From Thermoleophilia bacterium (lineage in GTDB: Bacteria; Actinomycetota; Thermoleophilia; BMS3ABIN01): a stretch of DNA of 64,000 bases. The translations under genes were made by a program, and so were the position numbers. Position 1 is the stretch's first letter. Each line of letters starts with the position of its first letter. The notes beneath the pieces were generated by a model that was not told the DNA's origin, ran no database searches, and worked only from the letters and a program-made list of their open reading frames with translations. Below are positions 33,518 to 38,665 of the stretch, piece by piece. Location of the stretch: assembly GCA_014859345.1 (NCBI GenBank), contig JACUUL010000002.1, forward strand, positions 1 through 64,000. Direction: 5' to 3'.

Positions 33518-35239
33518 TCAGTTATCCGTGGCGGAATCGGAGCCGGGATCTTCCAGGCCCGCCTCAGCGGCAGACACGGCCGGAACGTCAGCCGGCAATC
33601 CACCGGAACCATCCTCTCCGTATTCACTCTCCTGCTCCACCGCTCTGGCGACAGCGGCTCCCAGGAAATCCCTGAACAGCGGATGCGGCCGCGTGGGCCT
33701 GGATTTGAATTCAGGATGGAACTGTGTGCCTACGAACCACGGATGATCGGCGATCTCGATAATCTCCACCAGCCGCTTGTCAGGTGAGACGCCGCTGAAG
33801 ATCAGACCAGCCTCCTCCAGCTTCGGCCTGAGCGCGTTGTTAACCTCATAACGGTGGCGGTGACGTTCATGTATGTTGCGCAAGCCATAAGCCTTGGCCG
33901 CCTTGCTGCCGCGGGTGAGCTTGCAGGGATAGGACCCCAGGCGCATGGTGCCGCCCAGAGCTTCGACATCTTTCTGGTCCGGAAGCAGGTCGATAACCGG
34001 GTAGGGGGTGCCCTGGTCGAACTCGGAACTGTTGGCCCCGGGCATCCTGGCGACGTTGCGCGCGTACTCCACCACCGCGCACTGCATCCCCAGGCAGATG
34101 CCCAGGAAAGGTATTTTCTTCTCCCGGGCATAACTGACGGCCTGGATCTTTCCCTCGATGCCGCGCACGCCAAATCCGCCAGGGATAAGAACACCATCCA
34201 CGTCCCTGAGCTGCGACTCCACCAGCATCGGCGAAACACCCTCGGAATCGACCCAGACCACCTCCAGCTCACGGCCGTGATAAACCGCTGCATTCTTGAG
34301 AGCCTGGATGACGCTCATGTACGCATCCCACAGCTGGACATATTTTCCCACCAGGGCTATTTTTACCGGCAATTTGCAGGAATTTATCCGGTCGACCAGA
34401 TCCTGCCAGTCACTAAGGTCAGGGTCGTCCGCCTTCAGATCCAGTTTTCTAATCACCAGCTCATCGAGGCCCTCCTCCCTGAGGATGAGCGGAACCATAT
34501 AGATATCAGGCGCGTCAACCGCAGATATCACCGCCTCCAGCTCTATGTCGCAAAGCAGGGCTATTTTTTCCTTCAGGCTGTTGTTCATGTGCCTTGAGGC
34601 GCGGCAGACGATGATGTCAGGCTGGATACCGATTCCCCTGAGCTCCTTGACGCTGTGCTGGGTGGGCTTGGTCTTCTGCTCGCCTGCGGCCTCCAGGTAC
34701 GGAACCAGGGAAACGTGTATATAAAGGGCGTTTTCCCTGCCAACGTCGATGCGGAACTGGCGGATCGCCTCGAGAAACGGCAATGACTCGATGTCGCCGA
34801 CAGTGCCGCCGATCTCGGTTATGACCACGTCCACGCCGCCATCCATGTCGGCGACGCGATGAATACGCTGCTTGATCTCATTGGTCACATGCGGTATAAG
34901 CTGAACGGTTTTGCCAAGGTAGTCTCCACGCCTCTCCTTGTTGATGACGCTGAAGTACACGGTGCCCGATGTGACATTGCAGTCACTGGTCAGATTCTCA
35001 TCGACGTAACGCTCGTAATGGCCCAGGTCAAGATCGGTTTCGGCCCCATCTTCGGTCACGAACACCTCGCCGTGCTCGAACGGGCTCATGGTGCCGGGAT
35101 CGACATTGATATAGGGGTCGAGCTTCTGCATCTTCACCTTGACGCCGCGGCTCTTGAGCAGCCGGCCCAGCGATGCCGCCGTGATGCCTTTGCCCAGCGA
35201 AGAGACGACCCCGCCCGTTACGAAGATATGCTTAGCCAT
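33518..35239 (-). CDS. pyrG: CTP synthase
   Basis: [48 protein letters not shown]. Confidence 0.98.
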
Positions 35240-35545
35240 CCGTTTTCCGCCTTTCCCAGGGATTTACTGGACCAGCCAGCGCTGGCATTAAAAAACCGGA
35301 GGCGCGGCTCCGGGAAAATTTTTATCTGTTTTAGTTGTGATCCGTTGATTACCAAACAATCGTCCTGAAACGTCCTTCTCATTACAATAGAGAGTATATC
35401 ACCCGTTGGCCGAAGGTGAAAAGCCGGATATTCACCGGTTCAACCGCCGCTTTCGCTAATGGACAAGCGCGAAACAACGGAATATGATGAGTGTGCGTTC
35501 ACTTTGAGCGAGAATGTCTTCGCTCCCTCGCATACGGAGTGACCC

Positions 35546-36292
35546 TTGGACGAGAAACGGACAGAGGAACTGCGCGGCGCTGTCCTTAAAGCGTATTCCG
35601 CGGCGGCGGAACATCCTGACGGGACCCATCCTTTTCCCGTGGGCCGCAAGTTTGCCCTGAGCATCGGATACAGCGAAGAGCTGCTGGCGAGCCTCCCCGG
35701 AATTGCAGTCGATTCTTTTGCCGGCGTTACCAACCTGTCGGTCTCAGCCGGGATTCCACCGAAAAGCAAGGTTCTGGACCTCGGCTGCGGCGCCGGTCTG
35801 GACTCGCTGATTGCGGCCAGGCGTGCGGGACCGGACGGGTGGGTGGCAGGCGTGGATTTCAGTGGGAGCATGCTGGATCGGGCCCGCCACGCGGCCAAGG
35901 AAGCCGGGCTTGACAACGTTGATTTTTATCTTGCCGATGCCGAGTCGCTGCCTTTTCCTGACGGGCTCTTCGACGTGGCGCTGGTTAACGGCATCTTCAA
36001 TTTGAATCCGCGGCGGGACAAGATCATTAGGGAACTATACCGGGTGATGAAGCCTGGGGGCACGGCTTTCATAGCCGAAATCATCCTCAAGCAGCCGCTG
36101 GCGCCTGCGCCTGGCGAGGAGGGCAGCAACGTGAACTGGTTTGCCTGAATCGCCGGAGCCAAGGAGGGAGGATCCTTCCTGGAGGAGTTTCACTCGGCAG
36201 GATTCAGCAGAGCCGAGATTCTCAGGAGATTTCGCAATGACCGCACCATAAACTGCAATGTGGAGGCGGTTGAGCTGAAGCTGACTCGCTAA
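35546..36292 (+). CDS. ArsM-like SAM-dependent methyltransferase; candidate selenoprotein with in-frame UGA at 36146-36148
   Basis: SD GGAG + TTG start; VLDLGCGAGLDSLIAARR; ALVNGIFNLNPRRDKIIRELYRVMKPGG...NWFA[TGA]IAGAKEGGSFLEEFHSAGFSRAEILRRFRNDRTINCNVEAVELKLTR, stop TAA 36290-36292. Confidence 0.75.
36159..36182 (+). promoter_or_regulatory. Candidate bacterial SECIS-like hairpin
   Basis: CCA-(A bulge)-GGAGGG-AGGAU loop-CCUUCC-UGG; loop begins 20 nt after the UGA with G at the second loop position. Confidence 0.5.
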
Positions 36293-36371: not shown

Positions 36372-36569
36372 TTATTCTTCCTCTTCAAAAGTGATGGCGT
36401 CCTCCGGGCAGTTCTCCACCGCCGCTTCGACGCAGGCTTCCAGGCCGGCCAGGTCGGTGGCTATTACGTATGAAAGTCCGTCCTCGCGCACCTCGAACAC
36501 CTCCGGACAGATAGCCTCGCAATTTCCGCAACCCTGGCAAAGGGACTGGTCGACCTTGGGGACACGCAT
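36372..36569 (-). CDS. Ferredoxin (4Fe-4S)
   Basis: VDQSLCQGCGNCEAICPEVFEV...ENCPEDAITFEEEE. Confidence 0.93.
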   Translation of the reverse strand: MRVPKVDQSLCQGCGNCEAICPEVFEVREDGLSYVIATDLAGLEACVEAAVENCPEDAITFEEEE

Positions 36570-36727: not shown

Positions 36728-38665
36728 GTGGCGCGAATGCCCGGTTTTACTGAAAAAACGGCAACCTGCTCGGGATTTTCCGCCGCCGGACGACATCCGG
36801 TGATAATCTGGCTCGCTGCCGTTTTCGTTCTTTTCCTGGCGTCGGCTGTCACGCCGGATTCCGCCCGCGCCGTCTCCGCCGATGAGCCTATCGCCGGTTT
36901 CTCTCCGGTCATGGCCTCGCAGCTGGAGGCCGAGCTGGCTTCTGTGAATCCCGGTCACGGATTTCCAGGCCTGTCCCAGATGTATGTGGAGTGGGGATAC
37001 CGGTTTGGAATAAGAGCAGATGTGGCCTTCGCCCAGATGCTGCATGAGACCAATTACCTGAGATTTACGGGCGACGTCAAGGCGCATCAGAACAATTTCG
37101 CCGGCATAGGGGCTACTGGAGGCGGCAACCCGGGCAATTCTTTCGCGACCCCGGAGCTCGGCGTCATAGCCCATTACGCGCATCTGGCATGGTACGTTTT
37201 TCCGGACCATGTCAATGAATTTTGCACCCCGCTTTACGATCCGCGCCACTTCGGCGACACCCACCGCAACTCAGTCCGCACCATCAGAGACCTGGGCGGG
37301 CAGTGGGCGGTGCCCGGCACCGGATACGGCGACGCTATCGCCCGCATCGCTACCCGCATAAACAGCCGTCCGCCCAGCGGCTATGTTACGGGCAGTTTTA
37401 ACGAGGTTCCGGGTACGCCCGCTGACAGGCTTTCCACTTCCTATTATTTCACCTGGTATGATTCGCTGCCGGCTCATAGCATGCTCAACTGGATCCTGGT
37501 TGGCAACCAGGGTATCGGCACCGCGCGGGTCCGCATCACTGTCGGTTCCCAGGTCATACACGACCCGGCGGATCCATCCCGTGATTATTTCAGCATTCCT
37601 TCAGGCGGCCGGATCACGCCCATGATCCCCAATATGATTGGCGGACCAGTCAAGGTTTTATCGCTTGACGGCCATCCCCTGATCGCCAGCCAGCGGGTGC
37701 TTTACCGCGACTCGTTCAATGAGGTGCTGGGCATCCGGGCCGAGGACCTTACCGATTCCTGGGAGTTTACCTGGTACGACTCTCTTCCCCAAAACGGCAT
37801 GACCGGCAACTGGGTGCTGGTGGCAAACATGAGCGGGCAGCCTGCGGACGTTGAGATTCTGATCGGAGGAAGGAGAGTAGCGCTATATTCGGCCGCATCC
37901 GGCAATCCTTTGACGCCGGGGCAGATCGTAACGCCGGTATTTCCCGGAACCATGGCCGGACCGGTGCTGGTGCGCTCGACCAACCACCAACCGTTGATAG
38001 CCAGCCAGCGGGTGCTCTATAAAGACAGCTTTACCGAGCTGACCGGCATGCCAACGAACAGCCTGGACAGCCAGTATTTTTTCACTTGGTACGACAGCGT
38101 CTGGAGCAGCAACTGGGTGCTGGTCGCGAACCGGGGTTCTCAGCCCGCGGACGTGGACATACTCGTGGGAGGAGCGCTCAAGGCGCGTTACAGCAGCGCC
38201 GCCGGCAACCCGATCCAGCCCGGGGCGATGGTGACGCCCGTCTTCCCAAACCTCACTGACGGTCCGGTGCGGGTAATCTCGCACAACAACCAGCCGTTAA
38301 TGGCGTCTCAGCGGATCATCTACCGGAACAGCTTCGAGGAGGTTCAGGGCGCGCCGCCCTCCCTTGTTCACCCCGAGCATCTCTTCACCTGGTATGATTC
38401 CAAGCTTATCAACTACATGCGCGGCAACTGGATTCTGGTGGCCAATCACGGATCGGGAGACGCCCGCGTAGAGATCTACATCGGCGGCCAGAAGATGAAC
38501 GATCCCTCAAATCCGTCCAACAGCTATTTCACTATCCCGGAGGGCGGCCGCATAACGCCGCAATTTTATAATGTCATGGGCGGTCCGGTACGGGTGGTAT
38601 CGGTGACCGGCCAACCGCTGATGACCAGCCAGAGGGTGCTTTACAAGGATGGCCTGAGCCGGTAG
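36728..38665 (+). CDS. Secreted protein: N-terminal glucosaminidase-like domain plus four ~105-aa C-terminal repeats
   Basis: Signal/TM segment; MYVEWGYRFGIRADVAFAQMLHETNYLRFTGDVKAHQNNFAGIGATGGG; repeats FNEV...FTWYDS...SQRVLY x4. Start GTG 36728 or ATG 36737. Confidence 0.85.
   Translation: MARMPGFTEKTATCSGFSAAGRHPVIIWLAAVFVLFLASAVTPDSARAVSADEPIAGFSPVMASQLEAELASVNPGHGFPGLSQMYVEWGYRFGIRADVAFAQMLHETNYLRFTGDVKAHQNNFAGIGATGGGNPGNSFATPELGVIAHYAHLAWYVFPDHVNEFCTPLYDPRHFGDTHRNSVRTIRDLGGQWAVPGTGYGDAIARIATRINSRPPSGYVTGSFNEVPGTPADRLSTSYYFTWYDSLPAHSMLNWILVGNQGIGTARVRITVGSQVIHDPADPSRDYFSIPSGGRITPMIPNMIGGPVKVLSLDGHPLIASQRVLYRDSFNEVLGIRAEDLTDSWEFTWYDSLPQNGMTGNWVLVANMSGQPADVEILIGGRRVALYSAASGNPLTPGQIVTPVFPGTMAGPVLVRSTNHQPLIASQRVLYKDSFTELTGMPTNSLDSQYFFTWYDSVWSSNWVLVANRGSQPADVDILVGGALKARYSSAAGNPIQPGAMVTPVFPNLTDGPVRVISHNNQPLMASQRIIYRNSFEEVQGAPPSLVHPEHLFTWYDSKLINYMRGNWILVANHGSGDARVEIYIGGQKMNDPSNPSNSYFTIPEGGRITPQFYNVMGGPVRVVSVTGQPLMTSQRVLYKDGLSR
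37397..38665 (+). repeat. Four tandem protein-level repeats (units near 37397, 37715, 38030, 38333)
   Basis: Each unit starts F(N/T/E)E(V/L) and carries FTWYDS, NW(V/I)LVxN, TPxxxN/GxxxGPVxV and QPLxxSQRxxY. Confidence 0.85.

Follow-up and report, generated by a model that had tools for sequence, protein, structure and literature searches.

The arsenic methyltransferase CmArsM uses three Cys residues, Cys72, Cys174, and Cys224, as arsenic ligands; methylation of arsenite requires all three, methylation of methylarsenite requires Cys174 and Cys224, and a single protein ligand suffices for dimethylarsenite, with both the C174A and the C224A variant being inactive (PMC3877260). Selenocysteine (Sec) has already been catalogued in ArsM-like proteins. 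Table 1 of a review lists, under "Experimentally verified" and citing Fomenko et al. 2007, an arsenite methyltransferase with the motif UxxG (NF008823/PRK11873, WP_011987699.1), and the review also includes three ArsM-like fusion selenoproteins from NCBIfam, i.e., NF047649 (methyltransferase/UXPK-star), NF041537 (ArsM/AhpD), and NF041536 (ArsM/DUF2284), in which the same methyltransferase domain carries Sec in UxxG (PMC13188914). A preliminary description of the locus studied here had anticipated a notable enzyme; given these entries, that expectation does not hold in the sense of something new. Judging from its sequence, we read the protein as representing a stand-alone, single-Sec subfamily of the known ArsM-like Sec methyltransferases that is not matched to a named family.

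The stretch of DNA analysed (hereafter, the window) comprises 64,000 nucleotides from a Thermoleophilia bacterium (contig JACUUL010000002.1). The methyltransferase gene (35546..36292, + strand) starts with TTG at 35546, with a likely Shine-Dalgarno sequence, GGAG (35536..35539, + strand), 6 nt upstream, and ends with TAA at 36290-36292; read through, it yields a product of 248 aa with Sec at residue 201. A methyltransferase domain, full-length homologues, and a confidently modelled fold support its assignment as a stand-alone, single-Sec ArsM-like SAM methyltransferase. The only internal TGA in the frame (36146..36148, + strand), assigned to Sec201 through homologue and profile alignments, is followed by 47 open codons (36149..36289, + strand), and under translation table 11 the ORF stops at this TGA after 200 aa, leaving unannotated a post-UGA coding part that is recognizable by its conservation and in the structure model. 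Translation thus bore out both the in-frame TGA with its open extension and the truncation by gene callers, as initially described. With equal codon use, however, 47 open codons past a stop have by our own arithmetic a chance of approximately 10%; since one in ten makes the open stretch weak evidence by itself, it is the comparative evidence that decides.

Among 85,462 species genomes scanned, 12 loci (L057-L068) match the protein over nearly its full length with 51-59% identity, and a separate search of relatives added a thirteenth member of the same family (L021, 821-1612). TGA occupies the Sec201 codon in 12 of these 13 closest relatives, including all of L057-L068, in the context WF[AST]UIAGA[KR] (e.g., NWFAUIAGAKEG); the 12 span Acidobacteriota, Planctomycetota, Methylomirabilota, Rokuibacteriota, Nitrospirota, and one Nitrosomonas-labelled MAG. 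Identity of the 13 relatives to the window's protein is 52-62% before the TGA and 45-62% after it; this agreement, together with retention of the TGA in 12 of 13, is an observation beyond chance. In a wider set that includes the window sequence, the site is encoded by TGA (62 sequences), TGC (33), or TGT (14), the exceptions being L021 and a poorly aligned sequence, L117. More distant relatives carry Cys or Sec at this position, and the conserved Cys that the preliminary description had stated for such proteins is real, being equivalent to CmArsM Cys224; L021, the single same-family relative, differs in having Gly (GGG) and thus neither Cys nor Sec. Loss of the Sec machinery was considered as the cause of this Gly and rejected, as the L021 genome contains selB. 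The fold is kept in L021 despite the lost selenolate, and this natural loss may reveal how the enzyme functions in the absence of Sec.

In a maximum-likelihood tree, the protein falls into a 14-member clade (support 100/99) nested in a mixed Sec/Cys superfamily that shows approximately four changes of the Sec label overall; the branch so defined is stand-alone and single-Sec, comprises in this sample 13 members with Sec and one with Gly, and extends over several phyla. The closest homologues come from phyla other than that of the host, which suggests horizontal transfer of the gene. Two Sec proteins from Gemmatimonadota (L109 and L135) lie on a long branch close to the Cys-type sequences and may represent a separate gain of Sec. 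As a further observation, five Thermoleophilia-like class genomes (G021:C10, G326:C147, G328:C8, G330:C141, and G318:C156) carry two Sec (TGA) methyltransferase paralogues approximately 2 kb apart in opposite orientation. Viral and plasmid collections contained distant relatives only, and no second ArsM was found in the organism's own genome, where the next matches were partial and 33-40% identical, to general methyltransferases.

Published constraints on bSECIS elements comprise a loop of 3-9 nt, a stem of 4-16 bp, a G among the first two loop nucleotides, a distance of 16-37 nt from the UGA, and an MFE of at most -7.5 (PMC13188914). A bSECIS-type hairpin downstream of the TGA (AGGAGGGA-GGA-TCCTTCCT; 36162..36180, + strand) lies within all of these limits, with a stem of 8 bp, a 3-nt loop (GGA, 36170-36172), a UGA-to-loop distance of 21 nt, and -13.2 kcal/mol. 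As 170 of 600 random TGAs from the window (28%) also pass, this fit alone is weak, and it is conservation across homologues that carries weight: the bSECIS limits accommodate 59 of the 62 TGA homologues versus 12 of the 47 Cys homologues (counts uncorrected for relatedness), and within the clade 94% of the cells in the eight pairs are paired, a level reached in none of 500 shuffles and compared with 51-64% in slid controls. Two pairs show compensatory changes: a G-C to A-U exchange in L057 and L061, where a Lys and a Leu codon change synonymously, and a C-G to A-U exchange in the window sequence itself. Clade members L064, L066, and L067 fail strict hairpin criteria, the folding z-scores of the window's hairpin taken alone are unremarkable (-0.59 and +0.47), and an Rfam search of the window at gathering thresholds gave no SECIS match.

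With regard to the decoding machinery, the organism's own genome (2.08 Mb in 122 contigs, completeness recorded as 100%) contains selA, selB, selC, and selD; the preliminary description had made its selenoprotein reading depend on these genes, and none of them is absent. Profile searches recovered SelB with 366 bits (cut-off 242 bits) and SelD with 384 bits, and tRNA-Sec (selC), with anticodon TCA, adjoins selB in a selA-selB-selC cluster on contig C38, in which the SelA ORF was recognized by reading its sequence and the others by models. SelD has a TGA of its own within GAGUACK, matching the UxxK motif tabulated for SelD (PMC13188914), and the formate dehydrogenase alpha subunit FdhA (L144, contig C28:8995-10998) has an internal TGA in LUHAP, i.e., the UHxP motif; UGA thus seems to be read as Sec in no fewer than two familiar selenoproteins of this organism. 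Presence of selB was also tried as a discriminator among class genomes and rejected; selB occurs in 26 of the 38 genomes with the TGA gene versus 25 of the 36 without, and the machinery therefore provides no discrimination at this level.

An AlphaFold2 model built on a 29-sequence alignment (pLDDT 95.2, pTM 0.92) places two strands that close the methyltransferase sheet (residues 222-229 and 239-247) after Sec201. A 200-aa product would lack both, in keeping with the earlier view of the post-TGA part as the C-terminus of the fold. Arsenic methyltransferases account for all of the top 13 PDB matches, namely entries for CrArsM, human AS3MT, and CmArsM, the last also as C72A and C224A mutants, with TM-scores of 0.63-0.76 when normalized to the window's protein. 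The gene product belongs to the class I SAM-dependent methyltransferases, within the ArsM superfamily, and we place high confidence in its ArsM-type fold and its use of SAM. All clade members retain Cys81 of the SAM motif; Cys237, considered as a partner of Sec201, was rejected since it is not conserved in the clade.

Profile alignment pairs Sec201 with the Cys in GECLGGAL (residue 224 by counting along the CmArsM chain) and Gly149 with CmArsM Cys174 in SNCV, and the equivalent of Cys72 is Val61; with Val61 and Gly149 at these positions, one of the three arsenic ligands is left. This pattern extends across an alignment of the protein and its 110 homologues. Both other Cys are absent from all 62 Sec sequences, no Sec protein having a second ligand, and the sequences with Cys at the site include 33 that lack both other Cys and 14 that have all three, proportions that are biased because the set was picked by similarity to the window's protein. 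That Sec occurs only where the other two arsenic Cys are missing raises the question of whether one selenolate stands in for three thiols or whether the substrate is a different one.

The neighbouring genes lie outside the system. The divergent neighbour in the ORF list (33518..35239, - strand; 573 aa) encodes what we take from its sequence to be a CTP synthase-like protein, and the convergent neighbour (36372..36569, - strand) encodes, by sequence reading, a ferredoxin-like protein of 65 aa with a CxxCxxxC cluster. A comparison of the loci of the clade found no conserved gene neighbour or operon partner; the sole match, a response regulator at 3 loci, was rejected as unspecific. Elsewhere, the window contains a 6S RNA (RF00013; 21964-22120, - strand) scoring 77 bits against a gathering score of 46, as well as a 645-aa ORF (36728-38665, + strand) with a glucosaminidase-looking N-terminal part and several repeats of the FTWYDS...NWILVAN type.

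If the TGA were a real stop, the gene would be a truncated or decaying methyltransferase, or the codon a sequencing error for TGC; the point at which gene callers end the ORF agrees with this, as does the lack of Cys and Sec in L021, the closest same-family relative. We nevertheless regard a real stop as extremely improbable, given that 12 independent assemblies, drawn from several phyla, share the identical TGA, that conservation after the TGA equals that before it, and that the hairpin is conserved and two strands of the fold lie beyond the TGA. Together with the Sec machinery and the exchange of TGA and Cys codons at the site, these findings uphold the selenoprotein reading of the preliminary description, and the gene almost certainly encodes a selenoprotein in which UGA 201 specifies Sec. 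It adds a well-supported selenoprotein to a genome for which gene callers would record a truncated enzyme of 200 aa. With regard to function, the enzyme could be a canonical arsenite methyltransferase that converts As(III) to methylated arsenicals, Sec merely replacing Cys224. Arsenite methyltransferase models supply its best NCBIfam names, its best folds are arsenic methyltransferases, and the genome contains ORFs for arsR, arsC (low-molecular-weight-phosphatase type), and acr3 (L143:3718-5674, contig C31; Acr3 over cut-off, arsR and arsC by ORF reading), so the organism probably meets arsenic. However, only one of the three arsenic ligands is retained, while the first methylation needs three and the second needs two (PMC3877260), the score against NF008823 is 146.6 bits versus a cut-off of 263, and a published survey set a minimum of three out of four conserved Cys (PMC5552862); we thus consider a canonical role decidedly unlikely.

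The arsR-arsC-acr3 genes are located on a different contig from the methyltransferase gene and are unlinked to it, which is in line with an enzyme that does not act on metalloids at all; here, Sec201 would serve in a redox or nucleophilic role, e.g., by accepting the methyl group itself, or the enzyme would methylate a thiol or selenol small molecule. A lone Sec without a resolving Cys (Cys237 being unconserved) and the fact that every Sec homologue has lost the remaining arsenic ligands point in the same direction. On the other hand, no finding positively favours a different substrate, and Sec fills the arsenic-ligand position of an ArsM fold; we consider a non-metalloid enzyme possible but rather doubtful. 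The explanation that we prefer, to which we assign a probability of about 0.78, is a Sec enzyme of the ArsM type in which a lone selenolate engages a soft substrate. The ribosome would decode UGA 201 as Sec, directed by the hairpin beginning approximately 14 nt downstream and by the SelA, SelB, SelD, and tRNA-Sec that genomics indicates for the host. Sec201 takes the place of CmArsM Cys224, a direct arsenic ligand at the SAM-facing site, and its selenolate would capture the soft substrate and position it for methyl transfer. The likeliest substrate would be a trivalent metalloid species with a single protein ligand, such as an already methylated arsenical, a thiol-conjugated arsenic, or a similar compound; as dimethylarsenite needs one protein ligand, a one-ligand arsenical or thiol-conjugated metalloid would be the most economical choice. 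We put the odds that the natural substrate is a metalloid at about even. The Sec-dependent metalloid methyltransferase initially proposed therefore stands with regard to Sec at an arsenic-ligand site, but its metalloid substrate is unproven and represents the weaker part of that proposal, since neither of the two further arsenic ligands is present. Tentatively, and at somewhat less than even odds, the Sec members of the superfamily may represent a distinct class of single-selenolate SAM methyltransferases rather than arsenite methyltransferases, acting on a one-ligand substrate (such as a dimethylarsenical or a different soft element) or having the selenium itself accept the methyl group.

Among the described systems, WP_011987699.1, compared here by its table entry only, resembles the window's protein in that it is an ArsM-like SAM methyltransferase whose single Sec lies in UxxG. 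UIAG at residues 201-204 also fits the UxxG of the NCBIfam Sec fusions, which provide the best NCBIfam models for the protein (163-195 bits); its scores against ArsM/AhpD, ArsM/DUF2284, and methyltransferase/UXPK-star are 195, 163, and 187 bits, respectively, versus cut-offs of 510, 575, and 460. These models are longer (283-459 positions) and have further Sec in a second part, whereas the match stops at profile positions 228-229 and the protein ends after the methyltransferase domain. With CmArsM, CrArsM, and human AS3MT (4fr0, 5evj, and 8xt7) it shares the fold and the Cys224-equivalent site, but it has Sec for Cys224 and Val and Gly at the positions of Cys72 and Cys174 of CmArsM, and its 248 aa compare with 321-387 aa in the deposited chains. 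As the protein scores under all NCBIfam cut-offs, is without the fusion part, and fails the three-Cys test, we file it outside the canonical arsenite methyltransferases. The Thermoleophilia Sec methyltransferases with WTGUIAG have Sec at the same position and likewise lack the other arsenic ligands, but are approximately 38-43% identical to the protein described here, fall on a separate branch of the tree, and have another C-terminal tail.
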